Shown here one piece after another: positions 1 to 14,013 of a stretch of 64,000 nucleotides of DNA. Below the pieces are notes generated by a model. The model saw only the letters and a program-made list of their open reading frames with translations. It searched no databases and was not told where the DNA came from. Position 1 is the stretch's first letter, and each line of letters starts with the position of its first letter. Both the position numbers and the translations under genes were made by a program. Source of the DNA: Actinomycetota bacterium (GTDB taxonomy: Bacteria > Actinomycetota > Acidimicrobiia > Acidimicrobiales > Ilumatobacteraceae); assembly GCA_963169665.1 (NCBI GenBank), contig CAUJET010000016.1, positions 1 through 64,000 on the forward strand. Reading direction: 5' to 3'.

Positions 1-676
1 GCACCAGCATCGCCGGCTCCGACAGTGCCGGCACCGAACGGCCGTCGATCTCGATCATCTGCGGCGCCTCGAAGAGCACGTCATTGTCCAACCGGCTCGA
101 CACCAACGACCCTTGCACACCGAAGTGCACGTCGATCTCGACCCCCCGAACATCGACCAAGGCGTGCTCCTTCACCACCCAGGTTCGGGCAGGACCCGCC
201 TGTACCGGCCCGGGCTTCGACGTTACGTCGCGAAGAGCCTCGAGCGCGCGGTCGAGGTCGGCGAAGCGGACCAACACGTCCAGATCCACGTATTGACGCC
301 ACGTTTCGGACGGGTACACCGTTCTCGCAGTCGCGATGCCCTTGAGCGCGCGCCACTCGATGCCGGCCCGCTCAAAAGCCTCCGCCACGGGCGGCAACGA
401 ACCGTCCACCGACATGGTGTGCCGGCATGCGGCGACAAACCACCTCCGAAGATCGCTCAGCTGCTCCGGTTCGAGTTGGAGCACGTCTTGCGATGCATGC
501 CAGAAGCACCCGAGCACACGTTCCTTCGCGGCCCAGTCGAGCAGACTCTGGCCATCACCGACATCAACTGCAATGCGAGACCGCGGGTCGAGTCCCAACG
601 GTGCGTTCACCACCAACCGTCGCAGCAAGATCTGCCGCACCCCGCTCGACGTCGTGCTGTCGTCAGACAGTGGCAT
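1..676 (-). CDS. Nucleotidyltransferase-family protein (PF14907-like), 3' end cut by window edge
   Basis: The first 225 residues are visible; the gene runs off the left edge. Residues 110-113 (ALKG), a conserved Tyr-Pro at 121-122 and the RxYVDLDVLV stretch at 127-136 are the signature of the nucleotidyltransferase_5 family, in which the DxD acidic pair should bind metal. Its ATG overlaps the stop of the HPr-kinase-like gene by one base (TGATG), so the two are translationally coupled. In characterised lasso and HPr-rel-A type loci a kinase and this nucleotidyltransferase travel together, and I infer a peptide- or sugar-tailoring role. Substrate unknown; family call fairly firm. Confidence 0.72.
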   Translation of the reverse strand, partial: MPLSDDSTTSSGVRQILLRRLVVNAPLGLDPRSRIAVDVGDGQSLLDWAAKERVLGCFWHASQDVLQLEPEQLSDLRRWFVAACRHTMSVDGSLPPVAEAFERAGIEWRALKGIATARTVYPSETWRQYVDLDVLVRFADLDRALEALRDVTSKPGPVQAGPARTWVVKEHALVDVRGVEIDVHFGVQGSLVSSRLDNDVLFEAPQMIEIDGRSVPALSEPAMLV

Positions 677-1503
677 CACGCCAACTCCCGTGCAAGCGCC
701 CGGACCACAGCCTCAGCCTGGTCCAACCGCCGTGGCCGCTGCACGTTGATCAGCGGCACGTCGATCAGGTCGAGCAACAAAGTCGGTGCCGTCGCCACAT
801 GTTGACGGAGCGCATCGCCGATTGCGGCAGCGTGGTACAGGGTCGGCACGATTCGGGCTGCCGGCAGGCGATCGAGCCGCAGATCCGCTCCCCACGAGAG
901 CAGGACGAAGGCGCCGACCGGTGCCCGATCGCTAGCCTGCTTCGTGTCGATCCGCCACCGTTCGCGGGCCCCCACGCGCCCCAATGCTCTGCCGCCGAAC
1001 ACCTCTGCTGCTTCTTTGCGAAGGTCGATCGTGCTCGTGCCGCACAGCACATCGCGACCCTCGATCACCACCACATCGTCAGCTCGCACGGGGAAGCCGA
1101 GCGACCTCGCGGCAGCGACAGTGGTGCTCTTTCCGGCTTCCTTGTCTCCCAACAGCACCACGCACCGATCCCCGACATCGAAGCTCGACGCATGCAGGAC
1201 CAGCCGGCCGCGCCAGTGCTGAATGACTGCGGCAGGGAATGACAGATACGGATGCCGCAGGCCCTCGGCCGTCGGTGCCACATCCAGATCGATCCGAACC
1301 CGACTCGGCTCGCCTCGTTCGATCGAGACTCTCCCGCCCGGCACCTCGATTTCCGAGTGGTTCAGCGTGAATTCGAAGCGTGTCCCTTCGGGCACGACCG
1401 ACGACGAGGTGCCGATGGCGACGACGGCATCGCAGTCGTTCGTCGCCGAGCCGACGCAGAACCGAACGCCATGCACCTCAAAGACACCCATCGGATCGGT
1501 CAT
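676..1503 (-). CDS. HPr kinase/phosphorylase-like P-loop protein (kinase 1)
   Basis: 275 residues. A beta-rich N-terminal half leads to an LHAS segment (about 103-106) and a Walker A loop GDKEAGKST (about 119-127), followed by a DDVVVIEG acidic strand, as in HprK C-terminal folds. The N-terminal sensing domain of true HprK is absent. Its first 26 bases overlap the end of the methyltransferase gene, and its stop overlaps the start of the nucleotidyltransferase, so the three form one operon. In the paeninodin lasso pathway an HprK-like kinase phosphorylates the precursor's C-terminal Ser. By analogy this may be a RiPP tailoring kinase, but the target is an inference. A second homologous-fold kinase lies at 9137-10099. 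Confidence 0.75.
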   Translation of the reverse strand: MTDPMGVFEVHGVRFCVGSATNDCDAVVAIGTSSSVVPEGTRFEFTLNHSEIEVPGGRVSIERGEPSRVRIDLDVAPTAEGLRHPYLSFPAAVIQHWRGRLVLHASSFDVGDRCVVLLGDKEAGKSTTVAAARSLGFPVRADDVVVIEGRDVLCGTSTIDLRKEAAEVFGGRALGRVGARERWRIDTKQASDRAPVGAFVLLSWGADLRLDRLPAARIVPTLYHAAAIGDALRQHVATAPTLLLDLIDVPLINVQRPRRLDQAEAVVRALARELA

Positions 1504-2323
1504 CGCTCATCACCACCCGTCGACACACAGCGCGAGCCACCCCGACGGTCGAGATCTCGACGATCTCGAACCCTGCCGCCTCCACCTCGGCGCGCAACCC
1601 CTGTTCTTCGAACATGTGTGCGAAGTTCGGCGTGAGCATGTCGCCGCGCTCTGGAGCGCTGACGCCGAACCACCGAGCGGTCAACCGACCCCCCAGCGCC
1701 ACCGAGCGGATGTACCGATGTGCATCGGTGGCGGCGAAGTACGACAGCAGCATCGGCGCGCCGGGGTCAAGCACGCTGGCCGCACGCTCGAGCAACTCGA
1801 CCCGTGTACCACGACCTCGCACGAGCGAATACGACGACCATCCCAACACCAGTGCCTGATACGGCCCGGTCGCCGTGGGCGGCCACATGTCGCGCTCACA
1901 TGCGTGCATCCGCCCGTGCCTCGTGCCGGCGTGGTCGAAGGCGACATCGACACCCGCCGCGAGCGCTGAGTTGTACTCACAACCCTCGACGGCAAACCCG
2001 CGCCGTGCGAACTCGACCATCTCGCGTCCACCACCGGCAGCCCACACGAAGACGCGACCGGACGTCGGAAACAGTCGGTCGACGGCGTCGCGCTCCCACC
2101 ACTGGAAACCTCCCGTGTTGTACGCAACGTCGGCGTAGAGATCGTCGTGCGCATAGAGCCGCTCATCGATCGCTCGAAGCTGTGCAGGCGAGCTGGTCGC
2201 AAGGGCGACGCCGTCGAACAACCCACCAAACACCAGCCGAGCCCATGTCGCAGCATGCTCGCCCGCCGCCCCGCATCGCCGGGCAGCGCGAAACACCCTT
2301 GCTCGTCCTTCCTGCCGCCGCAT
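1478..2323 (-). CDS. Class I SAM-dependent methyltransferase-like protein
   Basis: 281 residues from the ATG at 2323. A Rossmann motif I is seen as VWAAGGGREMVEFA (about 93-106), followed by an acidic motif II ending VEGCEYN (about 112-118) and a later LVLGWSSYS strand equivalent to motif IV. This is the usual layout of a small-molecule or peptide methyltransferase. The conserved body starts near residue 45, so an internal GTG start is possible. It heads the minus-strand set methyltransferase, kinase, nucleotidyltransferase and is divergent from the peptide gene at 2427, with about 100 bp between them that could hold both promoters. Methylation of a RiPP core is plausible but not shown. Confidence 0.68.
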   Translation of the reverse strand: MRRQEGRARVFRAARRCGAAGEHAATWARLVFGGLFDGVALATSSPAQLRAIDERLYAHDDLYADVAYNTGGFQWWERDAVDRLFPTSGRVFVWAAGGGREMVEFARRGFAVEGCEYNSALAAGVDVAFDHAGTRHGRMHACERDMWPPTATGPYQALVLGWSSYSLVRGRGTRVELLERAASVLDPGAPMLLSYFAATDAHRYIRSVALGGRLTARWFGVSAPERGDMLTPNFAHMFEEQGLRAEVEAAGFEIVEISTVGVARAVCRRVVMSDDRSDGCL

Positions 2324-2426
2324 GTCGCCACGGTAGTTGCTGCGGAAACTCCGACGAATCGCCGTCGGGCAACCTGAGCAACGTTCCTGAACTGTGCTAC
2401 CGTCAAGATTTCTTCAAGGAGGTGCC

Positions 2427-2573
2427 ATGCGTCGTCAGTACACGACCCCCAATGTGATCGACATCGGTTCGATCGCCGAGATGACCGGACAGAACTTCAA
2501 CAAGATCAACTCGGCACAGGATGCCGCTAGCCAGACCATTCCCAGCATCATCGGATCGCTGACCCCGATCTGA
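2427..2573 (+). CDS. Lasso-leader-type RiPP precursor with non-canonical core (precursor 2)
   Basis: 48 residues with a very strong Shine-Dalgarno (AAGGAGGT at 2416-2423, three bases before the ATG). Residues 5-20 fit the actinobacterial lasso leader spacing exactly: Tyr5, Pro8, Val10, Gly14 and Thr20, where Thr is normally the penultimate leader residue (YxxPxLxxxGxxxxxT). That places the leader at 1-21 and the core at 22-48, starting Gln-Asn-Phe and ending Thr-Pro-Ile. Core positions 7, 8 and 9 are Asn, Ser and Ala, so the Asp/Glu needed for a normal 7-9 residue lasso ring is missing; the only acidic core residue is Asp32 (core position 11). A large hairpin and a stand-alone asparagine-synthetase domain follow. 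The leader assignment is strong; the final product is unknown. Confidence 0.7.
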   Translation: MRRQYTTPNVIDIGSIAEMTGQNFNKINSAQDAASQTIPSIIGSLTPI

Positions 2574-2624
2574 ACCCGAACGGTCCGGCCGATCCTCACG
2601 GATAGAGCTCGACTGACCGTCGGA

Positions 2625-3776
2625 CTGACCAAGATCGACCAGGCGCTCGGTTTCACGACCGGGCGCCTGGTTGGCGTTTCACCGCTCCCGGCGTCTCGGG
2701 TACCACCACGCATCGCGCTCGAGCAGTGCCTGGTCGAGGCCCTCAGCAGGTCACCGTGCGGCGTCGCCTTCTCGGGCGGTCGGGACTCGTCGGCACTTCT
2801 CGCACTGGCGTGCGACCTCGCAACGCGACACGGTCATCCACTGCCGATACCGGTGACCCTCAGGTTCGACGACGACCCCGAATCGAACGAAGACGAGTGG
2901 CAGCGCATCGTGCTCGATCACCTCGGCATCGACCACCGGGTGGAGATCGATGCCCGAGGCCGGTCGACGATGACCGGCCCCTACGCCGAAACGCTCTATC
3001 GGCGGCACGGCCTGCTGTATCCCGCGAACCTCCACACCCACCTGGCGATGGCACTCCACTTCGAGGGCGGATCCATCATCACCGGGGCCGGCGGCGACGA
3101 GGTCTTCGCCAGCCCGGCAGAGCCGCTCCTCAGGGTGCTCGCCGGCAAGCTCCGCCCGCGACCGGCTCACGTCGCGTCGTTCGCCCGTAACTCGCTTCCG
3201 GGCCGTGAAGCGCGCGCCGCGCGAACGCTGATGGCGACACATACGTGGGTCCGACCGGAGGTTCGGCAAGAACTCGAACGGCGCGTCGGCCGCGCCTACT
3301 GGGACGCGCCTCGGCGATATGACGCAGGCCTTCGTCACTGGGTGCAGGACCGGTACTACGTCGGGCTGCAAGAAACCCTGGCAGCAGTCGGACAGACCGC
3401 ACGCTGCTCGGTGGTCGCGCCGTTCCTCGACCACCGCTTCCTCGCTTCCTTCGCAACGCATGCCGGGTTCGCCGGCCCGACGTCACGAACTGACGCGATG
3501 CGCGAGCTGTTCGGCGAGTTCCTCCCAGCCGCGACGGTCAGCCGGTCGTCGAAGGCCACGTTCACCGCAGCACTTCACGCCGTCGAGCAGGAGTTCCTCG
3601 ACGAATGGGCGGGCGAAGGGGTACCGCTCGACCTCGTGGACCCCGAAGTGCTCCGCACCGAGTGGGCAACCGCTGCCCCGCACGCGTGCACCAGCTTGCT
3701 GCTGCAGTCTGCGTACTTCACGTGGAAGGGCGTGGAGGCCTGTTGCGATCAAACCTCGGGAGACGGGTCCGCGTAG
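2625..3776 (+). CDS. Stand-alone asparagine synthetase C-domain protein (start uncertain)
   Basis: The PP-loop SGGRDSS sits at about 2763-2783 and a GDEVFA segment follows, both typical of the ATP-pyrophosphatase (synthetase) domain of AsnB and lasso cyclases. About 383 residues are open from 2625. The N-terminal glutamine amidotransferase domain of AsnB and of ordinary lasso cyclases is absent. The frame has no ATG, GTG or TTG between the precursor stop (2571-2573) and 2853, and 2853 is already downstream of the PP-loop. I therefore chose a CTG at 2625; CTG at 2613 is equally possible. Upstream residues (TGRLVGVSPLP, then VPPR) look like the N-terminus of related stand-alone proteins. It should activate a carboxylate as acyl-AMP, probably on precursor 2. 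The last 28 bases overlap the convergent exporter gene. Confidence 0.68.
   Translation: MTKIDQALGFTTGRLVGVSPLPASRVPPRIALEQCLVEALSRSPCGVAFSGGRDSSALLALACDLATRHGHPLPIPVTLRFDDDPESNEDEWQRIVLDHLGIDHRVEIDARGRSTMTGPYAETLYRRHGLLYPANLHTHLAMALHFEGGSIITGAGGDEVFASPAEPLLRVLAGKLRPRPAHVASFARNSLPGREARAARTLMATHTWVRPEVRQELERRVGRAYWDAPRRYDAGLRHWVQDRYYVGLQETLAAVGQTARCSVVAPFLDHRFLASFATHAGFAGPTSRTDAMRELFGEFLPAATVSRSSKATFTAALHAVEQEFLDEWAGEGVPLDLVDPEVLRTEWATAAPHACTSLLLQSAYFTWKGVEACCDQTSGDGSA
2638..2671 (+). terminator. Large hairpin after precursor 2 (terminator or attenuator)
   Basis: ACCAGGCGC (2638-2646) pairs perfectly with GCGCCTGGT (2663-2671), and inner CGG/CCG bases extend the stem, leaving an 8-base loop. 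It lies 65 bases after the precursor stop and inside the open frame that leads into the asparagine-synthetase domain. A similar hairpin follows the other precursor at 5618-5646. I read it as a partial terminator that raises precursor over enzyme expression; no strong U-tract follows. Confidence 0.5.
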
Positions 3777-5602
3777 GCATTGGCTTGCAGCGTGAACAAC
3801 TCCGCATACAGGCCACGCCGCGCCATCAGCTGTTCGTGGTTGCCCTGCTCGACAACCCGGCCCTGCTCGAGCACGAAGATCCGGTCAGCAGCGCGAACGG
3901 TCGAGAAGCGGTGCGAGATGAGCAGCACCGTGCGCCCCTGGTAGAGCTCGTGAATCCGGTCGAAGAGATCGGCTTCGGAGCGGGGATCGAGCGACGCCGT
4001 GGGTTCGTCGAGGATGAGCAGGGGTGCGTCGCGGAAGAACGCCCGGGCCAACGCAACCCGCTGCCACTGGCCGCCGGAAAGATCACTTCCGCCCCAGTAT
4101 TCCGTGCCCAGCTGGGTGTCGTAACCCTCCGGGAGCTTCTCGAGAAAGCCATCGGCCGAGGCCCGGAGAGCTGCCTCACGCAACGCCACTTCATCCGAGA
4201 GCCGCTCATGCCTCCCGAAGCCGATGTTCTCGCGGGCGGACAGCAGGTACCGGACGTAGTCCTGGAAGATGACGCCCACGTTGCTGCTCACCTGGGCAGG
4301 GTCGACCGTCGAAAGGTCGACGCCATCCCACCTGATCGCCCCCGACGACGGGGCGTACAGCCCGGCGAGCAGTTTGGCCAGGGTCGTCTTGCCGGAGCCG
4401 TTCTCCCCCACGAGCGCGACGACCTCCCCGCGACGTACCTCGATCGACACGTCCACCAGCACCGGTTCGGCACGATTCGGGTAGGAGAACGACACGTGGT
4501 CGACCTCGATCAGATCGAAACCTGCGGGCGCGTCGCCGGTGGGCCTGGCCTGCTCGAGCGCCGGCATCGCCTCCACGAACGAGGTGAAGTCCTCGATGAA
4601 CAACGAACTCTCGTACAACGAGGTGGCGCCTCCGGCGAGAGCGCCGAGGCGTTGCGCGAACAGGAGGATCGCCGTCGCAGCGGCCCCCGCTTCGGCGAGA
4701 TCGAGCCGGCCCGAGCTGATGAACCACACCAGCAATGCCAGGGCGCCGGCGTTGAGGAACGCCGTGGCGAGCGCTCCCAGCAATCCGAATCTCAGCCGGC
4801 GTGCAGCCATCGCCTTGAGCTCGACGATCCGTGTCTCGTAGAGCGCGTCATGACGGTCGCGGAGGAACGAGGTGAGCCCGAACGCCCTCACCTCGGCAGC
4901 ACCCTCTCGTTTCGAGAGCACGTCCGCGAGGTATGACCTTCTCCGATCGCGCTCGGTCTGAGCGACGGAGAACTGATACGACGCCTTGCTCGCCTTGGCC
5001 GTCGCGACCCAAGCAGGTACATAGGCGACGAGCAGCGCCGCGAGGAAGATCGGTTCGATCAGCAGCAGCGCGACGCCGATGCCGCCCATCGTCACCAGCG
5101 CGCTCATCATGGTGAGTACACCGGTGGCCATCTGATACGGCCGGGACGAGGCGTTCACCTGTGCTCGAAGCAGGCGGTTGTGGAACTGCGGCGAGTCGAA
5201 CGTGATCAGGTCGACAGCGGTCGCCACCTCGAGCACCTGGCCGATCGCGTGGCGCGCAACCAAATCTCCCATGACGTACTGCTGCTCGACACGAGCAAGC
5301 CCCGTGAATGCCACCACGGAACTCAAGGTCGCAATCCCGATGAGCCAGGGCACCACCGATGCGAACTCCGTCCCATTCCCGAGGTCGAGAAGTTCCGCAA
5401 TGAGTCGCTGGCTGACCAAGACCTGCCCCGCCAGGGCAACAGCGCCGAGCAACTGAAAGCAGGCGTTGAGCGTGAACTGGCGCGGCGCTGCCTGCCACGC
5501 CAGTTGGAGCGCCCCCTTGATCAGTCGAGGCAGCCGCCTCAGCTGTCTCGTACGGCCGTAGAGGAAGAGCTCGTTGAGGTTGATCTGGTCGGGTTGGTCC
5601 AT
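3749..5602 (-). CDS. ABC transporter, fused permease-ATPase (lasso D exporter)
   Basis: 617 residues from the ATG at 5602 (MDQPDQ). The N-terminal half carries about six membrane spans; the ATPase half has Walker A GENGSGKTT (about 399-407), signature LSGGQ (about 509-513), Walker B LLILDEPT (about 530-537) and an H-loop ISHRFS. This is the half-transporter architecture of lasso-peptide D proteins, which export the mature peptide and give self-immunity as homodimers. A longer frame extends to 5749 but would run through the hairpin and into precursor 1, so 5602 is preferred. It is separated from the precursor by the 5618-5646 hairpin, so expression is probably lower than that of the peptide. 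Confidence 0.85.
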   Translation of the reverse strand: MDQPDQINLNELFLYGRTRQLRRLPRLIKGALQLAWQAAPRQFTLNACFQLLGAVALAGQVLVSQRLIAELLDLGNGTEFASVVPWLIGIATLSSVVAFTGLARVEQQYVMGDLVARHAIGQVLEVATAVDLITFDSPQFHNRLLRAQVNASSRPYQMATGVLTMMSALVTMGGIGVALLLIEPIFLAALLVAYVPAWVATAKASKASYQFSVAQTERDRRRSYLADVLSKREGAAEVRAFGLTSFLRDRHDALYETRIVELKAMAARRLRFGLLGALATAFLNAGALALLVWFISSGRLDLAEAGAAATAILLFAQRLGALAGGATSLYESSLFIEDFTSFVEAMPALEQARPTGDAPAGFDLIEVDHVSFSYPNRAEPVLVDVSIEVRRGEVVALVGENGSGKTTLAKLLAGLYAPSSGAIRWDGVDLSTVDPAQVSSNVGVIFQDYVRYLLSARENIGFGRHERLSDEVALREAALRASADGFLEKLPEGYDTQLGTEYWGGSDLSGGQWQRVALARAFFRDAPLLILDEPTASLDPRSEADLFDRIHELYQGRTVLLISHRFSTVRAADRIFVLEQGRVVEQGNHEQLMARRGLYAELFTLQANAYADPSPEV

Positions 5603-5687: not shown

Positions 5688-5822
5688 TCAGTTCTTTCCC
5701 TTGCCTGCTTCCACGCCAGTCTTGCTCTTGCCGTCAGCGTTGCCGACACCGGAGCCCGTAGTCAGCGTCTTAAACGAGCCGAGATCCGTCAAGTCCATCG
5801 TGGTGTACGTCTTCTTTTCCAT
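5688..5822 (-). CDS. Lasso peptide precursor (precursor 1), Gly1/Asp8 core
   Basis: 44 residues with a GGGAGG ribosome site six bases before the ATG. The leader has Tyr6, Leu11, Gly15 and Thr21 at the spacing recognised by lasso B1 proteins, with Met9 in place of the usual Pro. Thr21 at position -2 puts cleavage after Thr22. The predicted 22-residue core starts Gly-Ser-Gly-Val and has Asp30 at core position 8, so an 8-residue Gly1-Asp8 macrolactam is expected. The tail is rich in Gly and Lys, has a single Glu, ends in Asn and has no aromatic residue anywhere, which is odd because lasso tails are usually held by bulky plug residues. The gene lies after the cyclase and before the exporter (order B2-C-A-D), not at the operon front as is common. 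Confidence 0.85.
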   Translation of the reverse strand: MEKKTYTTMDLTDLGSFKTLTTGSGVGNADGKSKTGVEAGKGKN

Positions 5823-5857: not shown

Positions 5858-7732
5858 TCAGATCTCGCCCTGGCTGTCGCCGCCGAACGGCCGCAACCCG
5901 TGTTGGGCATTCGCCCAGGCATGCACCGACCACGCACACCACCACTCCCAGATCGGGCCAACAGATGACGGCGCCGCGGCCGCTCGAACGCCGGCCCGCT
6001 CAAGTGCCTCCACATCGATGAACGGCAGATGCACCGAATGCGGAACACCCGTCAGCTTGCGAGTGAGCGACAAGCCGGCCAGCACCCAGGAGTCGTTGAA
6101 GACGGCTTTGTCCGTGCGATTCAGTGTCGCAACGGGCAGGCTCTGACCGAGGACCCGCCGATGCAGACCTCGCAGGCGTCGATCCGCCACGAGGATCTCC
6201 TCGCTCAACGACAGGACGTACTCGACGAGGCGCACGTCGAGATACGGATGGCGGGCCTCCACCCCTGACGCCGGCCCGAGCCGGTCCCACAGATCCTCGA
6301 ACCAGCAGAGATGGCCCAGGTAGTGGTTCGCCCGCATGCCTCGCGACCGACCCCATCGACCGCGCATCCTGAACGGGACATCGGTCGGCACCATCGACGC
6401 AGGCCGAGTGACGAATTCCGTGGTCTGGGGCTGACGACGCCAACGCGCGCGGTAGAGCGCAACGCGAGAACTTCTTGAGAGCACGTGCACGAACGCACCC
6501 GCGAGTTGCCGTACGAGGAACCGAGGCACGTCGCGGGCGCGATAACCGGCATGTCGAAGGAGGTGGCCCGCTCGAATGACATGACCGCGGGCGATCAGCC
6601 CGGCGGCCGCTGCCTGCATCGAGCCGTGGAGCAGGTGATCCCCTCCCTGCCCATCCAGCACGACTCGGCACCCGGACGAGGCCGCGAGCCTGTCGAGCGG
6701 CACGTACCAGCGGCTGTCGGGAGTCGACGGCAGATCCATCGACGCCGCGATCTCCTCGACGAAGTCGTACTCGGGAGCCTGCTTCGCGTCGATCGTGCGC
6801 AACTCGATGCCGATGTGGTGCGCTGCATCTCGGATGTAGTGGCCCTCATCACACGGCAAGCCCGGGAACTCCACCCCGACAGCAAGCAGCTGCTTCGCGT
6901 CGACAAGTTGTGCCGCAACCGCGGCCACCGACGTCGAGTCGAATCCACCGCTCAGCTGAATTGCCACCCTGCCCGGCGCACGCAGCCGATGCCGGACGGA
7001 TGCCTCGAACAACCGACGCACCTCCGCTGCAGCCTCGTCGACCGAGACGGACCGGTGTGGAACGTCCAGGACCCAGTACCGGCGGCTGGAGGTCGGCCGC
7101 CCAGCGGCCATCGTCATGACATGACCGCCTGGCAGCCGACGGACGAATCGATGTGGGGTGGCCTCAGGATCGCAGTCCATCGCCCGCGCGAACCTCACCA
7201 GATAGTCGTCATCGTATGCGAGGACCTCCTGTCGAGCACGAACGACCGACCGGAGCGTCGAGCCCACCACTCGTCCACCGTCTGGAAGCTCCGTCCAGTA
7301 GACGGGCCTGATCCCGAAGTGATCTCGACCCACGAACAAGGTCTGCAGCTCTTCGTCCCAGATCGCGAACGCGAAGTCCCCGTACAGGTGCTCGACGAGG
7401 CGCTCACCCCATTTGCAGTACGCACCGAGAATCAGATCAGCGTCGGTGAGCAAACGGTCTGGCGATCCGCCCAACGCTGCTCGAAGTTCGGCGCCATTGT
7501 CGACTCGTGCGTCGGCCACCAGCCAGATCGGGCGCTCGGTGTGCCGGAGAGGGAAGCGCTCGGCCTGACTCTCCGGAGTTGTGCAGAACTGAGCGTGAGC
7601 GAGGAAGGTCGGGCCGCAATCGAGCACCGATTGTCGATCGGGGCCACGAGCCACAATGTCAGCCGCCAGCCCGGTGAGCACCTGCGGAGACGGCTCGTTG
7701 GCACCGCGTAGCAGGACCGCGAAACCGCTCAC
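5858..7732 (-). CDS. Lasso cyclase (asparagine-synthetase-like C protein)
   Basis: 624 residues. An N-terminal class-II amidotransferase-like domain (about 1-200, with YGDFAFAIWDE at 117-127) is followed by the synthetase domain with PP-loop SGGFDS at 261-266 and a LDGQGGDHLL segment. The catalytic Cys that should follow the initiator Met is Ser (MSGF), so the glutaminase half should be inactive. That fits lasso cyclases, which adenylate the ring Asp/Glu and use the core N-terminus as amine instead of ammonia. It starts with a GTG that overlaps the stop of the B2 gene by four bases. It should close the Gly1-Asp8 amide of precursor 1 and may or may not serve precursor 2. Confidence 0.88.
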   Translation of the reverse strand: MSGFAVLLRGANEPSPQVLTGLAADIVARGPDRQSVLDCGPTFLAHAQFCTTPESQAERFPLRHTERPIWLVADARVDNGAELRAALGGSPDRLLTDADLILGAYCKWGERLVEHLYGDFAFAIWDEELQTLFVGRDHFGIRPVYWTELPDGGRVVGSTLRSVVRARQEVLAYDDDYLVRFARAMDCDPEATPHRFVRRLPGGHVMTMAAGRPTSSRRYWVLDVPHRSVSVDEAAAEVRRLFEASVRHRLRAPGRVAIQLSGGFDSTSVAAVAAQLVDAKQLLAVGVEFPGLPCDEGHYIRDAAHHIGIELRTIDAKQAPEYDFVEEIAASMDLPSTPDSRWYVPLDRLAASSGCRVVLDGQGGDHLLHGSMQAAAAGLIARGHVIRAGHLLRHAGYRARDVPRFLVRQLAGAFVHVLSRSSRVALYRARWRRQPQTTEFVTRPASMVPTDVPFRMRGRWGRSRGMRANHYLGHLCWFEDLWDRLGPASGVEARHPYLDVRLVEYVLSLSEEILVADRRLRGLHRRVLGQSLPVATLNRTDKAVFNDSWVLAGLSLTRKLTGVPHSVHLPFIDVEALERAGVRAAAAPSSVGPIWEWWCAWSVHAWANAQHGLRPFGGDSQGEI

Positions 7733-8208
7733 GATCGGGACTGAAGCGGTGGAAGCTCCAGGCCGAAGCTTCCGAACCGATCCCGAACGTCAGCAGCGTC
7801 GTTCACCGGAACTCCCGACACCTCCACCCAGGCGTGCGCCGGCAGCACGCCGTCCGACGGCGCTTCGGCACCGATCACCACCGACGCGTCGATGCCGCGC
7901 TTCCTCAGCAGGTACCAGAGCACCAGCGATCGGCCCAGGCACAGCGCCCCGATCCACCGCCGGGATGCCACCCGGTTGACCGTTCGACCCATCAGTTGTG
8001 CGACGGCCACGTCCGGCGCTCGGCACGGAACGCTCGACCGTCGGGCGAGCGACTCCACCGTTCGTGCAAAGCCGCGCCGGTGCAGGGACCGTTCGACCAA
8101 CGGGACGAGCACCAGACACCGCGCCGTCCATCCCCATTCGGCACGACTCAGGCTCAGCAGCACCCGCACAGATCGCACGAGCTTCGTCATGGCCCGTCTT
8201 GCCTGCAC
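7729..8208 (-). CDS. Lasso leader protease B2 (transglutaminase-like)
   Basis: 159 residues from 8208; an internal ATG at 8190 is an equally good start. It has the Transglut_core3 pattern: Cys90 in ALCLGRSL, His125 in AHAWVEV and Asp137 in VNDAAD form the predicted Cys-His-Asp triad. Lasso B2 proteins cut the precursor after the leader, two residues past the conserved Thr, when the leader is presented by B1. Its stop overlaps the cyclase start (GTGA). Its B1 partner lies 570 bp upstream on the same strand, separated by the plus-strand CxxCxxCC gene. Confidence 0.86.
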   Translation of the reverse strand: MQARRAMTKLVRSVRVLLSLSRAEWGWTARCLVLVPLVERSLHRRGFARTVESLARRSSVPCRAPDVAVAQLMGRTVNRVASRRWIGALCLGRSLVLWYLLRKRGIDASVVIGAEAPSDGVLPAHAWVEVSGVPVNDAADVRDRFGSFGLELPPLQSRS

Positions 8209-8225: not shown

Positions 8226-8792
8226 GTGGAACCAGGTGAGATTCCCGACGAGTCGCAGCTCTGTGTGTCCTGTGGGATGTGCTGTGACGGCACGTATCTG
8301 TCGTGGGCGCCGGTGGTCGAAGGAGACGACCGAGAGGGGCTTGCGAGCATCGGCCACCCGATCCGCTTCGCCGAGGCGCGCGGCGACTACTTCGATCTTC
8401 CCTGCCCAGCGCTCGTGGACAAATGCTGCACCGTGTACGGGCACCGTCCGTCGATCTGCCCGTCGTATCGCTGTGGGATGCTCAACCGCTTCGCGTCCGG
8501 ACTGGTGAGCACGAGCGACGCCCTTGCCACCATTGCCCGCACGCTCGAGGTACGAGACCGCGTCCGCCCAGCGATGATGGAACGTCTCGGCCAGAGCGAG
8601 CCGAAGTCGATGTACCTGATGTACTCCGAACTCGAGGCATGGTACGACGCTGCTCCCGACCCCACCGCCGCGCGCACGGCCGACGCTGCACTGCTCGCCG
8701 ACATCGGCATGCTCCGGTTGTTGCTCAAGAAGTACTTCGAGAAGCGCGACGCCATCACCGACGACATCGACATGACCGTCAGCCAAGCCTGA
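8226..8792 (+). CDS. YkgJ-family cysteine-cluster protein
   Basis: 188 residues from a GTG at 8226. Cys13, Cys16, Cys19 and Cys20 form a CxxCxxCC cluster, followed by paired and single cysteines in DKCCTVYGHRPSICPSYRC. This is the YkgJ (UPF0153/CxxCxxCC) pattern thought to bind zinc or an iron-sulfur centre; the reaction is not established for the family. It runs against the surrounding minus-strand lasso genes: its 5' end is 17-35 bases from the start of B2, so a divergent promoter is likely, and its last 14 bases overlap the end of the B1 gene. Position suggests a link to the RiPP pathway, but this is inference. Confidence 0.72.
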   Translation: MEPGEIPDESQLCVSCGMCCDGTYLSWAPVVEGDDREGLASIGHPIRFAEARGDYFDLPCPALVDKCCTVYGHRPSICPSYRCGMLNRFASGLVSTSDALATIARTLEVRDRVRPAMMERLGQSEPKSMYLMYSELEAWYDAAPDPTAARTADAALLADIGMLRLLLKKYFEKRDAITDDIDMTVSQA

Positions 8793-9072
8793 CCAGTCCC
8801 TGCTCCGCCAGCAACTGGAACACCCGGAACGCGTCGGCCTGGAGCACCTCCGGATCCACGTCGAACTCCTCCTGCATCGCAGCCAACACCGAGCCGATCG
8901 TGGTCGTCTTCGATTCGCTGACCAGTTCCCACATCCTGTTCGCCGCTCCCTCGAGGGAGAAGTACCGCTCCTGTTCGAGGCTCAACAGCACGGTGTCGCC
9001 GCCGGCCTCGCGCGAGAGCACCCCCTCGGAGATGCTCACCACGGTTGCGTCGTTGATACTTGCCTCGCTCAT
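8779..9072 (-). CDS. PqqD-type RiPP recognition element (lasso B1)
   Basis: 97 residues from the ATG at 9072, chosen because GAGGA precedes it; ATGs at 9081 and 9090 are in frame. The protein fits the PqqD wHTH fold: a beta hairpin ending SLEQERYFSLEGAANRMWEL, then a helix, DVDPEVLQAD and a final helix with LAEQGLV. Such proteins bind the YxxPxLxxxG leader and hand the precursor to B2. Both peptides in this window carry that leader, so one B1 may serve both. It lies 64 bases after the second kinase gene. Confidence 0.85.
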   Translation of the reverse strand: MSEASINDATVVSISEGVLSREAGGDTVLLSLEQERYFSLEGAANRMWELVSESKTTTIGSVLAAMQEEFDVDPEVLQADAFRVFQLLAEQGLVRLG

Positions 9073-9136
9073 GTTCCTCATCTTTCTCAAGTGGACGTGC
9101 CTGTCCCGACCCGCCGACCGGCGACTGCGACGACGC

Positions 9137-10099
9137 TCAAGGCTGGCGATCCTCGTCGATCCGCTCGATCAGTGATATCACGTCGCCGAGATACTCGAAG
9201 CCACGCGGACGGTCGAGCCGCCACGTCGGGATGACAGCGCAGAGCGCCGAGGACGAGAGGAATGCCTGTCTGGTCGTCTCTGTCGGGTTGCCCGACATGT
9301 GGAAGGCGTGCCCCGCTACCAACCCCATCGCCGCAGCGAACTGCACCCGTGACGCCGTGGCCGATCCATCGCTGGACCACCCAGCTACGTGCACGGCACA
9401 GATCTCGGCCGGCATCGTCGCCATCCTCAACGGAGCATCGACCGCGAACCGACGCTTTGCATGGCCCTTGGTCATCGGAGCGCCGGGACGCAGGTTCGGC
9501 ACCAGCGCGGCGGCCGAGTCGGGATAGAGCCGCACACTGCTGTAGCCCGGCACAGCACGACACGCCCCCTCGGTGATGATCACACGAACGGCATCGTCGT
9601 CGAGCAGAGGCCAGCCGCTCGCCCCGAGCGCCACGGCGAGCGTGCTCTTACCCGCTCCCGACTCCCCGACGAAAAGGTGCACACGCCCGCTCGGCCCGAC
9701 CACGCCGGATGCGTGCAACATGAGGTCACCTCGCAGCGACACGATTCGCGGCAACACATGGTCGACGAGCAGGTGGGTGACCAGATCAGGATCATCGGCA
9801 CCCCCACGCCAGACAGCGTGATCCCGGTCGAACTCGAACCGCACATCCCCGGCAAAGTCCAAGCGAATCCGTCCATCCACCAGCCAGGACTCGACCACCC
9901 ACGGATTCATTGCGTCGTCGGCACGTTGGTGGGCGACATCTACCTCATCCATATCGACGCACCCGGCGATCACATCGACCGACGATGTCGACGCGACGCG
10001 GTCCAGCGGCAACGAGGTGGTGCTCGCGATCGTCAAGCCGTGAGCGCGATAACAGAAACGTTTGGGCGAATTCGTCATCTCGAGCACCATCGGCGTCAC
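9137..10099 (-). CDS. HPr kinase-like P-loop protein (kinase 2)
   Basis: 320 residues from 10099; an in-frame ATG at 10078 is an alternative start. It has an LHASGV segment, a Walker A loop VGESGAGKSTL near residues 143-153, and a LLDDDAV acidic strand shortly after, the HprK C-terminal arrangement. It is longer than kinase 1 and has low similarity outside these motifs, so the two are not a recent tandem copy. It sits directly upstream of the B1 gene and 9 bases after the VanZ-like gene, within the lasso operon. The role as a peptide kinase is inferred from HprK-like kinases of other lasso clusters; the mature core ends in Asn, so the C-terminal-Ser chemistry of paeninodin cannot apply directly. 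Confidence 0.78.
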   Translation of the reverse strand: MTPMVLEMTNSPKRFCYRAHGLTIASTTSLPLDRVASTSSVDVIAGCVDMDEVDVAHQRADDAMNPWVVESWLVDGRIRLDFAGDVRFEFDRDHAVWRGGADDPDLVTHLLVDHVLPRIVSLRGDLMLHASGVVGPSGRVHLFVGESGAGKSTLAVALGASGWPLLDDDAVRVIITEGACRAVPGYSSVRLYPDSAAALVPNLRPGAPMTKGHAKRRFAVDAPLRMATMPAEICAVHVAGWSSDGSATASRVQFAAAMGLVAGHAFHMSGNPTETTRQAFLSSSALCAVIPTWRLDRPRGFEYLGDVISLIERIDEDRQP

Positions 10100-10769: not shown

Positions 10770-11909
10770 TTGAGATTTCCCACTGGTCTGGCGCGCCGCC
10801 ACCCCGAACCGACGCTGGTCGACAGCGATCTGACGGCTGGCATCCCATGGCACCCAGCAAGCGGCCAGATCGAGTCGCTCGACGGCATCCGCTTCATCTC
10901 GATCATGATCGTGTTCGTCGGCCATGCAGGCTGGGGAGACATCATCCCGGGCGGCTTCGGCGTCACGATCTTCTTCTTCCTCAGCGGCTACCTGATCACC
11001 ACCTTGCTCCGCCGTGAACTCACCCGGCACGGATCGATCTCACTGAAGAAGTTCTACCTGCGGCGCGCGATCCGCATCTGGCCTGCCTTCTATCTGGTGC
11101 TGACCGCCTGCGTCGTGATGTCCATCACCGGTGTGCTGAGCCGAACGCTCGCCTGGGACAGCGTCGCGTTGCAGTACCTGCACCTGGCCAACTACGACCA
11201 GATGTTCAACGGCAATGCCGGCATCCCGGCCGGCACCGAGGTGTACTGGTCGCTGGCCGTCGAGGAGCACTTCTACCTGTTGTTCCCGCTCGCCTTCATG
11301 CTGATGTCGCGCCGAGGGCTCCCCCTCCGCCGGATCGCAGCAGTACTCGCCACCGCATGCGTCGTCATCCTCGCGTGGCGTCTGGTCCTCATCCTCGGTC
11401 TCGACGCGGACATGCACCACACCTACTACGCGTCCGACACCCGATTCGACAGCATCCTGCTCGGCTGCATCCTCGCCGTGTGGCACAACCCCGCCTTGGA
11501 CCCAGACCCCTTGACGGAGCGCACCTGGAAGTACGTGGCGGCCCCGGCAGGGCTGCTCGCGATCGTCGCGACGTTCGCGATCCGAGACGAGTCGTTTCGC
11601 GAGACCTTTCGCTACTCCGTGCAAGGCATCGCGCTCATGCCGCTGTTCTGGTGCGCGATCAGGTACCCCGCATGGGGCCCGATGCGCTGGCTCAACACCC
11701 GGACCGCAGCGTTCATGGGCCGGCTGAGCTACGCCTTCTACCTGGTGCACTTCACGGTGATCCTGTGGCTCGCCGAGCGGCTCCCGCAGATCGGACAGGT
11801 CCCACGCGCGGGGATCGCGTTCGCGCTGTCGACCGCCCTCGCGTACCTCGTGCACCTCGCGGTCGAACGGCCGCTCGCGCCGATTCGCCACCGCCTCGGC
11901 CGGAGCTGA
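10770..11909 (+). CDS. Acyltransferase family 3 (OafA/OatA-like) membrane protein
   Basis: 379 residues from a TTG at 10770; no better start or clear ribosome site is visible. The conserved core begins at IESLDGIRFISIMIVFVGH (about 32-50), where the family's His lies in the first span; FFFLSGYLIT, FYLRRAIRIWPAFY and the WSLAVEEHFYL segment follow. About ten spans are predicted. Such proteins move acetyl or other acyl groups onto exported sugars or peptidoglycan. It stands at the head of the polysaccharide locus and is separated from the next gene by about 150 bases, including a triple CTCGGCGATG-type tandem repeat near 11930-11955. Confidence 0.83.
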   Translation: MRFPTGLARRHPEPTLVDSDLTAGIPWHPASGQIESLDGIRFISIMIVFVGHAGWGDIIPGGFGVTIFFFLSGYLITTLLRRELTRHGSISLKKFYLRRAIRIWPAFYLVLTACVVMSITGVLSRTLAWDSVALQYLHLANYDQMFNGNAGIPAGTEVYWSLAVEEHFYLLFPLAFMLMSRRGLPLRRIAAVLATACVVILAWRLVLILGLDADMHHTYYASDTRFDSILLGCILAVWHNPALDPDPLTERTWKYVAAPAGLLAIVATFAIRDESFRETFRYSVQGIALMPLFWCAIRYPAWGPMRWLNTRTAAFMGRLSYAFYLVHFTVILWLAERLPQIGQVPRAGIAFALSTALAYLVHLAVERPLAPIRHRLGRS

Positions 11910-12061
11910 CCACACGCACCCTCGCAGACCTCGGCGATGCTCGGCGATGCTCGGCGCATCGTTCGTAGGGCCGTGTCCCTCAAGTTCTGGTCATGGCGCC
12001 GGCTCGCCACCTCAGCCGTGCCACGGTCGGTGGGCCGCCGTTCACGACAGGCGGCAAGCGC

Positions 12062-13048
12062 ATGTCCCACGGGTTGACAACGGTCAACGGGAACGCGAAT
12101 CTCTACGGCACTCCGCAGGCGGCGGAGCACATTTCTGACAGTGACGGGCGGTCATCGATGACAGATCAACTGGTGGGACGCGAGTTCACCGAACTCGCAG
12201 GTCGGGCCAATGGCGGCAGCAACTCCTCGTCAGGGGCCAACTCCATGACGACTCGGGGCGCGCTGGTCGAGCGGCGACGGCCAATGCCGGCGAGCCATGG
12301 CGAACCGTGGACCTACGTGATGAACGGCACGAACGTGCGGGTCACGGTGTCGATCATCGTGCCCGCCCGGAACGAGGCCGCGAACCTCGTCCTGCTGCTC
12401 CCGGCCCTGCCGCCGGCGTACGAAGTCATCCTCGTCGACGGCAACTCGGTGGACGGCACGGTCGAGGTCGCACGACGCGCCCTCCCCCAGATCAGGGTCG
12501 TGAAGCAGACCGGCAAAGGCAAGGGCGACGCCATGTGTGCGGGCCTGCGCGCTGCAACCGGCGACATCAGCGTCTTCATCGACGCCGACGGTTCGAACAC
12601 CGCCGACGAGATCCACCAGTTCGTCCTGGCACTGGTCAGCGGTGCCGACCTGGCGAAGGGCTCACGATTCCTTCCTCGCGGCGGGAGCAGCGACATCACC
12701 GGCGTCCGCCGACTGGGCAACTGGGGCATCCGATTCCTGGTGAACAACCTCTACGACGTGCGTTTCACCGATGTCGCCTACGGCTTCAACGCCCTGTGGA
12801 CGCGTCACCGCGACGTCCTCCGCCTCGATTGCCAAGGCTTCGAGGTCGAGACCCTCATGCATGTTCGAGCGGCTCGCGCCGGACTCGTCATCCAAGAGGT
12901 GCCTTCGTTCGAGGGCAAGCGGGCAGTCGGAGCGACCAACCTCCACGCCCTGCGCGATGGACTACGGATCGCGGCGGTCCTGATCCGCGAAGCATGCGAT
13001 CAGTACATCAACGGTCGGAAGATCGATCGACGCGACGCAACGGTGTGA
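12062..13048 (+). CDS. Family 2 glycosyltransferase (polyprenyl-phosphate type)
   Basis: GT-A fold: VSIIVPARNEAANL opens the nucleotide-binding domain, VILVDGNSVDGT follows, and FIDADGSN is the DxD metal site. TGKGKGDAMCAG and the SRFLPRGG segment resemble dolichol- or undecaprenyl-phosphate glucose/mannose synthases. The start is uncertain: ATG at 12062 gives 328 residues, ATG at 12158 gives 296, and the family core begins about residue 96 of the longer form. The N-terminal extension is Ser/Asn/Gly-rich and has no predicted fold. The next gene starts three bases after its stop. Confidence 0.8.
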   Translation: MSHGLTTVNGNANLYGTPQAAEHISDSDGRSSMTDQLVGREFTELAGRANGGSNSSSGANSMTTRGALVERRRPMPASHGEPWTYVMNGTNVRVTVSIIVPARNEAANLVLLLPALPPAYEVILVDGNSVDGTVEVARRALPQIRVVKQTGKGKGDAMCAGLRAATGDISVFIDADGSNTADEIHQFVLALVSGADLAKGSRFLPRGGSSDITGVRRLGNWGIRFLVNNLYDVRFTDVAYGFNALWTRHRDVLRLDCQGFEVETLMHVRAARAGLVIQEVPSFEGKRAVGATNLHALRDGLRIAAVLIREACDQYINGRKIDRRDATV

Positions 13049-13050
13049 CC

Positions 13051-14013
13051 ATGTCCGCTCTGCCTGCCCACCTGGGAGCAGCCGCAACGAGCACGGTCGT
13101 CGTCTGTACCTATTCGATGGATCGCCTCGACGATCTCGTCGCATGTCTCGACGGCATCCGCTCGCTCCGGCAATCGCCTGACGAGGTGCTCGTGGTCGTC
13201 GACCACAATGCCGAACTCGCGCAACTCCTCGCCGCGTCACGCCTCGACATCCGCGTCGTCGCGAACCGCTTCACCAAGGGCCTCTCGGGCGCTCGCAACA
13301 CCGCGATCGAAGAAGCCACCGGAGACGTGCTCGTCTTCCTCGACGACGACGCCGTCCCGGATCAGGACTGGCTCGAGGGCATCATGGCCCCCTTTGCGAA
13401 CGCCGCCGTCGCCGTCGTCGGCGGCCACATCGAACCAGCCTGGCCGACCGCCAGGCCAGGCTGGTTCCCCCCTCATCTCGACTGGACCATCGGGTGCTCG
13501 ATCCCGTCGCTCCCACCGGCCGGCGGACCGGTTCGTAACGTCTACGGAGCGAGCGCCGCGTTTCGCCGCAGCGAACTCGCTGCGGTCGGCGGCTTCCCCA
13601 CCGAGCTCGGCAGGATCGGCGCCGACGCGGCCGGGTGCGAGGAGACCGACGTCTGCATCCGCATTCGCCAGCGTGTGCCGTCGGCACTCGTGATGTACGC
13701 GCCCGAGTCGAACGTGCACCACCGAGTCACGACCGAGCGCGCCACACCTCGATACGTCATGCGCCGCTGCTACGCGGAAGGAAAGAGCAAGGCACGCCTC
13801 GCTGCTCGCGTCGGCAGCAGCGACGCGACCTCCGACGAGCGCGGGTACGCACTCGTCATCCTGCGCACCGCCTTCACCGATGTCGTCACCGCAGTCGCTC
13901 ACCCCATCCGAGCAGCGCGTGCGGCAGTCCTCGTCGGTGGCCTGGGCGCAGCCAGCTTCGGCTATCTCAAACAGTCCCTCACCATGCGGATGGCACGGAG
14001 CGCACGCGCGTGA
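13051..14013 (+). CDS. Family 2 glycosyltransferase
   Basis: 320 residues. STVVVCTYSMDR opens the GT-A domain, EVLVVVDHN and GLSGARNTAIEEATGDV follow, and FLDDDAVPDQDW holds the DDD metal site. A GCEETDVCIRI segment near residue 205-215 matches the ED acceptor-side motif of GT2 enzymes. It probably adds a sugar to a lipid-linked repeat unit in the cytoplasm. It starts three bases after the previous glycosyltransferase and its stop overlaps the GTG of the membrane protein that follows. Confidence 0.83.
   Translation: MSALPAHLGAAATSTVVVCTYSMDRLDDLVACLDGIRSLRQSPDEVLVVVDHNAELAQLLAASRLDIRVVANRFTKGLSGARNTAIEEATGDVLVFLDDDAVPDQDWLEGIMAPFANAAVAVVGGHIEPAWPTARPGWFPPHLDWTIGCSIPSLPPAGGPVRNVYGASAAFRRSELAAVGGFPTELGRIGADAAGCEETDVCIRIRQRVPSALVMYAPESNVHHRVTTERATPRYVMRRCYAEGKSKARLAARVGSSDATSDERGYALVILRTAFTDVVTAVAHPIRAARAAVLVGGLGAASFGYLKQSLTMRMARSARA

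Follow-up and report, generated by a model that had tools for sequence, protein, structure and literature searches.

Lasso peptide definitions demand an N-terminal amine joined to an acid at core position 7-9 (PMC9266682, PMC8498205). The cyclases are described as using the N-terminus, and natural rings comprise 7, 8 or 9 residues, with up to 10 in engineered fusilassin (PMC13352647). Metanodin has an unusual residue 1 (Asn) and was missed by automatic mining, with its acid at the ordinary ring distance and its N-terminus as the amine (PMC12670498). Lariocidin B contains a Lys side-chain isopeptide, which is a second bond between Lys2 and the C-terminus that depends on a clostripain-type peptidase; its ring is formed by Ser1 and Asp8 (PMC11451635). 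Linear polyphosphorylated peptides (LPPs), found mainly in Bacillota, share with lasso pathways a lasso-like leader motif and an RRE, accompanied by HprK, an NTP transferase and an exporter, and have no cyclase and a different peptidase (PMC13381572). The paeninodin-like lasso group combines split B1 and B2 proteins with HprK, a nucleotidyltransferase and an exporter. No report of a lasso cyclase with Lys as the ring amine was found in the open-access literature searched.

The locus described here lies at one end of a stretch of 64,000 nucleotides, which is referred to as the window. Its features are as follows.

2..679, minus strand: nucleotidyltransferase (NTP_transf_5), truncated by the contig end (PF14907, 4.6e-19)
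676..1503, minus strand: HprK-like kinase 1 (TIGR04352, 1.8e-4, under the cut-off), matching the HprK of AsnC loci
1478..2323, minus strand: SAM methyltransferase, distantly of the daptide type (NF041820, 3e-11, 43 bits, cut-off 175)
2416..2422, plus strand: Shine-Dalgarno sequence AAGGAGG, 4 nt ahead of the pep1 ATG and unique in the window
2427..2573, plus strand: pep1 precursor peptide gene with leader landmarks (leader residues 1-21, core 22-48)
2490..2570, plus strand: pep1 core QNFNKINSAQDAASQTIPSIIGSLTPI (Lys5 at 2502-2504, Asp11 at 2520-2522)
2613..3776, plus strand: AsnC, a stand-alone Asn-synthetase-type cyclase without a glutaminase domain (Pfam Asn_synthase, 2.7e-15)
3749..5602, minus strand: ABC exporter (PF00005, 1.9e-33)
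5688..5822, minus strand: pep2, a second precursor (core GSGVGNAD8GKSK..., ordinary 8-residue ring)
5858..7732, minus strand: two-domain lasso cyclase (glutaminase-like and synthetase domains) beside pep2 (NF033535, 3.2e-77, under the cut-off)
7729..8208, minus strand: B2 leader peptidase (NF033537, 64 bits, cut-off 33)
8779..9090, minus strand: B1, a PqqD-type RRE (PF05402, 3.5e-14)
9137..10099, minus strand: HprK-like kinase 2 (TIGR04352, 7.2e-8, under the cut-off)

Graspetides are made by ATP-grasp ligases, and daptides are marked by a Thr-derived C-terminal amine and a set of partner enzymes. Among the cluster ORFs scanned with Pfam and NCBIfam, no ATP-grasp ligase was matched and the daptide partner enzymes were absent; the methyltransferase is only a distant match and pep1 ends in Ile. 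No methyltransferase like that at 1478-2323 on the minus strand was seen in other AsnC clusters. The side-chain to side-chain lactam proposed below resembles graspetides, for which side-chain linkages, both lactams and lactones, are mentioned in PMC13097080. The cluster contains a B1 RRE, a B2 peptidase and an Asn-synthetase-type cyclase, as a lasso cluster does. The LPP-like gene set is accompanied here by AsnC and the two-domain cyclase, and no signal peptidase was recognized among the ORFs scanned. The likeness to the paeninodin-like group extends to the leader, B1, B2, the Asn-synthetase-type cyclase and the tailoring genes. The pep1 and AsnC pair differs from that group in having no Asp or Glu at core 7-9, a cyclase without a glutaminase domain, a Lys side chain as the proposed amine and no C-terminal Ser. 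Glycosyltransferase and acyltransferase genes adjoin the cluster (window 10770-14013), and glycosyltransferase genes also occur in the neighborhoods of two comparison loci (L025, L028); this setting recalls the polysaccharide loci of LPP and paeninodin-like clusters.

The pep1 leader and core

The pep1 gene encodes 48 residues (translation MRRQYTTPNVIDIGSIAEMTGQNFNKINSAQDAASQTIPSIIGSLTPI). Its Tyr5, Pro8, Val10, Gly14 and Thr20 stand at positions -17, -14, -12, -8 and -2, in exactly the YxxPxLxxxGxxxxxT spacing that the original prediction had assigned to it. The positions published for Tyr, Pro, Leu and Thr in lasso leaders (PMC10368454) are the same, and YxxPxL...T(-2) is matched at -17, -14, -12 and -2. 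All five landmarks were found only in pep1 among the window ORFs, and pep2 has four. The ribosome site, described beforehand as very strong, deserves the description: the 64 kb contain AAGGAGG-N4-ATG a single time, at pep1, whereas shuffles give an expectation of 0.03. Furthermore, a profile of ten Pseudonocardiaceae precursors matched the leader at 6e-8 (in a four-sequence test set), and the same profile gave no match to the core. The five landmarks, the unique ribosome site and the profile match place the leader far from chance. The NCBIfam lasso_cyano leader model matched pep1 below its threshold (16.6 bits versus a cut-off of 33). Judged by its sequence, the pep1 leader is of the type recognized by B1 and B2, and is a genuine lasso leader. 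B2 is the sole PF13471 match in the genome and B1 is likewise a sole match (genome 98% complete). Thus pep1 and pep2 must share one B1 and one B2, unless the assembly misses a copy.

Numbered from Gln22 as residue 1, the core is 27 residues long; Asp11 is its sole acid and Lys5 its sole Lys. Its first residue is Gln and residues 7-9 are Asn, Ser and Ala, just as predicted, with no Asp or Glu at 7-9; the C-terminal residue is Ile. The claim that a normal ring from the N-terminus to an acid at 7-9 cannot form also holds, the sole acid being Asp11. Cleavage two residues later, which would turn Asp11 into Asp9, was ruled out, as the leader landmarks fit Gln22 alone as residue 1. A C-terminal Ser is present in 19 of the 32 cores tabulated below and missing from pep1, so action of the kinases on such a residue is unlikely.

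No homolog of pep1 was found by exact 8-mer patterns in the genome contig collection, and none was found in viral contigs, in plasmids, or in 200 family genomes; the genus and family samples held no relative. A search of the phylum with pep1 returned weak matches, mostly due to chance, the exceptions being two loci (L002, L017) with tandem lasso precursors that have acids at E8 or D9.

The stand-alone cyclase and its relatives

AsnC starts 39-51 nt 3' of pep1 on the same strand, and its pairing with pep1 as substrate was assigned by this adjacency. The AsnC frame is the frame of pep1, divided from it by the pep1 TGA (window 2571-2850), and contains no ATG, GTG or TTG upstream of the PP-loop. 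The start is probably CTG 2625 (or 2613), since the translation beginning at CTG 2625 (LTKIDQALGF) lines up with relatives whose first residues are MTP or MTE. A functional pep1-TGA-AsnC fusion was set aside, as the two frames coincide in the window but not in L074. The AlphaFold2 model of AsnC (pLDDT 90.8) has as its nearest solved folds TsnB9, asparagine synthetases (AsnB), and beta-lactam and carbapenam synthetases; no solved structure was found by sequence profile.

AsnC is the longest branch in the stand-alone cyclase family, which, together with the lack of a standard start codon, would also fit relaxed constraint. Under a decay scenario, the ring acid of pep1 and the start codon of AsnC would both have disappeared, and no product would be made. 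The unusual start, the long branch, the missing C-terminal Ser and the lack of pep1 relatives in the genus and family samples are all consistent with such decay. However, AsnC runs through 387 codons without a stop and retains all invariant residues, its model is confident, and the pep1 leader and Shine-Dalgarno sequence are perfect. The spacing of the sole Lys and the sole acid also recurs independently in other lineages, one of them represented by an isolate type strain (L051, below). Decay is thus considered quite improbable.

About 33 AsnC relatives were collected: from four other genomes (family and phylum samples), from 23 loci in the genome collection, one of which is the same Ilumatobacter nonamiensis locus, from the Smaragdicoccus family (three) and from the class (six, one a repeat). 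Several of these loci are metagenome assemblies, which L051 is not. One relative, in G347 (L029, 8945-10198, minus strand), is broken by a single in-frame TAG, and the precursor near it has Ala at -2. The relatives adjoin B1, HprK and an ABC exporter, mostly also B2 and an NTP transferase, together with lasso-leader precursors, and in several clusters they are the only cyclase seen. On this evidence, AsnC and its relatives should be lasso-type cyclases. In Pseudonocardiaceae, two AsnC genes and two precursors often occur with one B1 and one B2, an arrangement comparable to the two precursors and two cyclases of the window. The original prediction had pointed to stand-alone Asn-synthetase domains in related genomes as the place where homologous peptides should lie. 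Lasso-leader precursors are indeed found there in some 30 genomes; the place is filled mostly by Asp9 cores, with a displaced acid in a few, and pep1 itself is without a close homolog.

The relatives also bear on whether pep1 is cyclized at all. Like an LPP, pep1 could be a linear or otherwise modified RiPP that uses a lasso leader, B1 and B2, with AsnC acting as an amidating enzyme or standing idle. LPPs share HprK, the NTP transferase and the exporter with this cluster (PMC13381572), and C-terminal amidation and nitrile formation are further activities of Asn-synthetase-like enzymes (PMC13060819). Lasso-leader precursors (HGRGHPPFG..GPPGCNPSDGCVAPGLGSQ..) adjoin a B2 gene at L111 (5756-5950) and L113 (5921-6112), and also at L110, and the 13-kb stretch yielded no PP-loop cyclase; these are perhaps an actinobacterial linear RiPP using a lasso leader. 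On the other side, the cyclase that follows pep1 has relatives paired with cores whose acid is at 7-9, and AsnC lacks the glutaminase domain that would provide ammonia. In LPP clusters there is no cyclase, and the peptidase is an archaeal-type signal peptidase, an enzyme not recognized among the ORFs examined here. The cyclase-free precursors have no Lys ahead of the acid. We consider such a linear or otherwise modified product unlikely. The suggestion that a non-lasso RiPP merely borrows the leader and B1/B2 loses ground in particular, because the gene 39-51 nt downstream of pep1 encodes a cyclase with relatives that occur beside ordinary lasso cores.

Displaced acids and lysine spacing

The acid position was tabulated for 32 non-redundant precursors from the clusters of AsnC relatives, including pep2 of the window. 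In 27 of them an acid is present at core 7-9, with 19 at position 9. The five displaced-acid cores are pep1 and the first four listed here; L108, first collected as a control, is a sixth case.

L051, Smaragdicoccus niigatensis DSM 44881: core APKPKLGSKQDASNQRLS (with its acid numbered, APKPKLGSKQD11ASNQRLS)
L061 (G628): core DKINKEGRKID11GMGG...
L071 (G985): core MPAPPGKTGTVHD13...
L074 (G1037): core GTGTPTITPPQSGKVPSSTSD21FY...
L108 (G225:C17), 1001-1204: 46-residue core with first acid Asp33, beside a canonical two-domain lasso cyclase

The cyclase beside L108 is of the bona fide two-domain lasso type (NF033535, 786 bits). It belongs to a small control of ordinary two-domain lasso clusters, which yielded four precursors next to a cyclase with a clear PP-loop; the other three have an acid at 7-9. 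Plasmid lasso clusters, used as an extra test, contained no displaced-acid core.

Three of the five displaced acids are exactly at 11 (P = 0.004, computed post hoc). The nearest cyclase kin of L051 is L059, with a D9 core, and that of L061 is L060, with a D8 core. A single clade of the three Asp11 cyclases was rejected (AU test, P = 1.2e-6), and parsimony counts D11 as three changes and displaced acids in general as five. The Asp11 arrangement therefore appears, from these phylogenies, to have arisen more than once. The cores of pep1 and L051 are alike in fixed register beyond shuffles (P = 1.7e-4). Residue 1 varies freely in the six displaced-acid cores (Q, A, D, M, G and Q).

All three Asp11 cores have Lys5, six residues ahead of the acid, compared with 1 of 20 ordinary cores (P = 0.002). 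The idea of a Lys pattern was formed on these three, which leaves L071, L074 and L108 as the remaining cases. Their sole pre-acid Lys is at D-6, D-7 and D-6 (of Asp33), respectively, i.e., two of three exactly at D-6 (P = 0.008) and all three at D-6 or D-7 (P = 0.001). Over the six cores, Lys is at D-6 in five and at D-7 in the other (shuffle P = 7e-5; P = 0.0015 when corrected for any residue at any offset from 1 to 10). With six cases and a pattern noticed after looking, the corrected P value rises to about 0.04-0.05 when one case is left out. A pre-acid Lys is present in all six displaced-acid cores versus 5 of 23 ordinary cores (P = 0.001). One locus, L130, may be a counter-example: its enzyme is a divergent Asn-synthetase-like protein, and its precursor has acids at 1 and 12 with no Lys ahead of 12.

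Two further kinds of core were observed. Pseudonocardiaceae type-1 precursors (for example L041, 5507-5644) have cores GQSQGSRLD9AD11FAAG... that retain both Asp9 and Asp11, either of which may be the ring acid. L072 (G1070:C83, 6912-7661), which has a stand-alone cyclase, B1, B2 and a kinase nearby, contains seven tandem lasso-leader precursors with cores of just 10-13 residues (DDGSQFDADQVIN, VDGSFGDREQP, GDGSLKQDGN and others). These cores are too short for an ordinary threaded tail. They have odd first residues and no Lys at D-6, thus an unusual first residue is not by itself a predictor of Lys.

A ring from the N-terminus to Asp n has 3n+1 atoms, and a lactam with Lys at D-k has 3k+8. The former amounts to 25 and 28 atoms for Asp8 and Asp9, and to 34, 40, 64 and 100 for Asp at 11, 13, 21 and 33, whereas the latter amounts to 26 (k=6) or 29 (k=7). 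Closure through Lys would thus give a near-normal ring in all six cores, unlike closure through the N-terminus. The Lys spacing suggests that the ring is closed through Lys rather than through the N-terminal end of the peptide.

The main competing explanation is an enlarged lasso ring, in which AsnC would join the Gln1 amine to Asp11 in an 11-residue (34-atom) macrolactam. This is the normal chemistry of the family; Gln1 should be tolerable, as it also occurs with Asp9 in L040 and Asp8 in L060, and the fusilassin enzymes accept engineered rings of up to 10 residues (PMC13352647). A two-residue insertion ahead of the acid, the best of sizes 0-5, aligns the pep1 core with Pseudonocardiaceae Asp9 cores, weakly (P = 0.03, or 0.12 over all sizes), and homology of these cores is at most suggestive. 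However, the same logic demands 40 atoms in L071, 64 in L074 and 100 in L108, and it leaves the Lys at D-6 unexplained. Furthermore, none of the three Asp11 cores has a tail aromatic to hold the thread, compared with 16 of 20 ordinary cores (P = 0.02). An 11-residue ring in pep1 is accordingly given a fairly low probability. The original prediction had offered this larger ring with Asp11: the candidate acid is retained, and such a ring is given a lower probability than closure on Lys5, which keeps the normal ring size.

Proposed product and its meaning

We favor, tentatively and at slightly less than an even chance, the reading that pep1 is a lasso-pathway RiPP precursor with an altered ring, in which AsnC activates Asp11 and joins it to Lys5. 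The leader, the gene order, the predicted cyclase fold, the intact family motifs and the positions of acid and Lys are seen directly. From the exact leader, the shared B1 would recognize pep1 and B2 would cleave after Gly21, giving a free N-terminal Gln1. By analogy with its family, AsnC would adenylate Asp11, the only acid of the core, and an amine would close the lactam. The Lys5 side chain is the most likely amine, giving a 26-atom ring of about ordinary lasso size, with residues 1-4 (QNFN) as an exocyclic N-terminal arm and residues 12-27 as a C-terminal tail; the ABC protein would presumably export the product. The tail has no aromatic plug and no bulky residue, and the product may well be unthreaded or only loosely threaded. 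Of the three options originally offered (a larger ring, activation of another residue, or a borrowed leader), none is favored by the comparison, which points to a fourth, a displaced acid together with a changed amine, the Lys5 side chain; Asp11 is kept as the candidate acid.

More generally, it is plausible, if somewhat short of an even chance, that for some lasso-pathway cyclases the ring amine comes from an internal Lys, six or seven residues ahead of Asp, with Lys replacing residue 1 relative to Asp8 or Asp9. The ring could then lie anywhere along the core, as with acids at 11, 13, 21 and 33. Should the rings have 11 residues instead, they would exceed every natural lasso ring reported in the literature examined, where the range is 7-9. 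If true, a Lys-closed ring would break both the rule of the N-terminal amine and that of the acid at 7-9, and would allow an N-terminal arm outside the ring. Its search signature would be a lasso leader followed by a core without an acid at 7-9 and with Lys at D-6 or D-7, next to an Asn-synthetase-type cyclase. Such peptides would form a class of side-chain lactam RiPPs derived from the lasso pathway, and mining rules that insist on an acid at 7-9 would overlook them.
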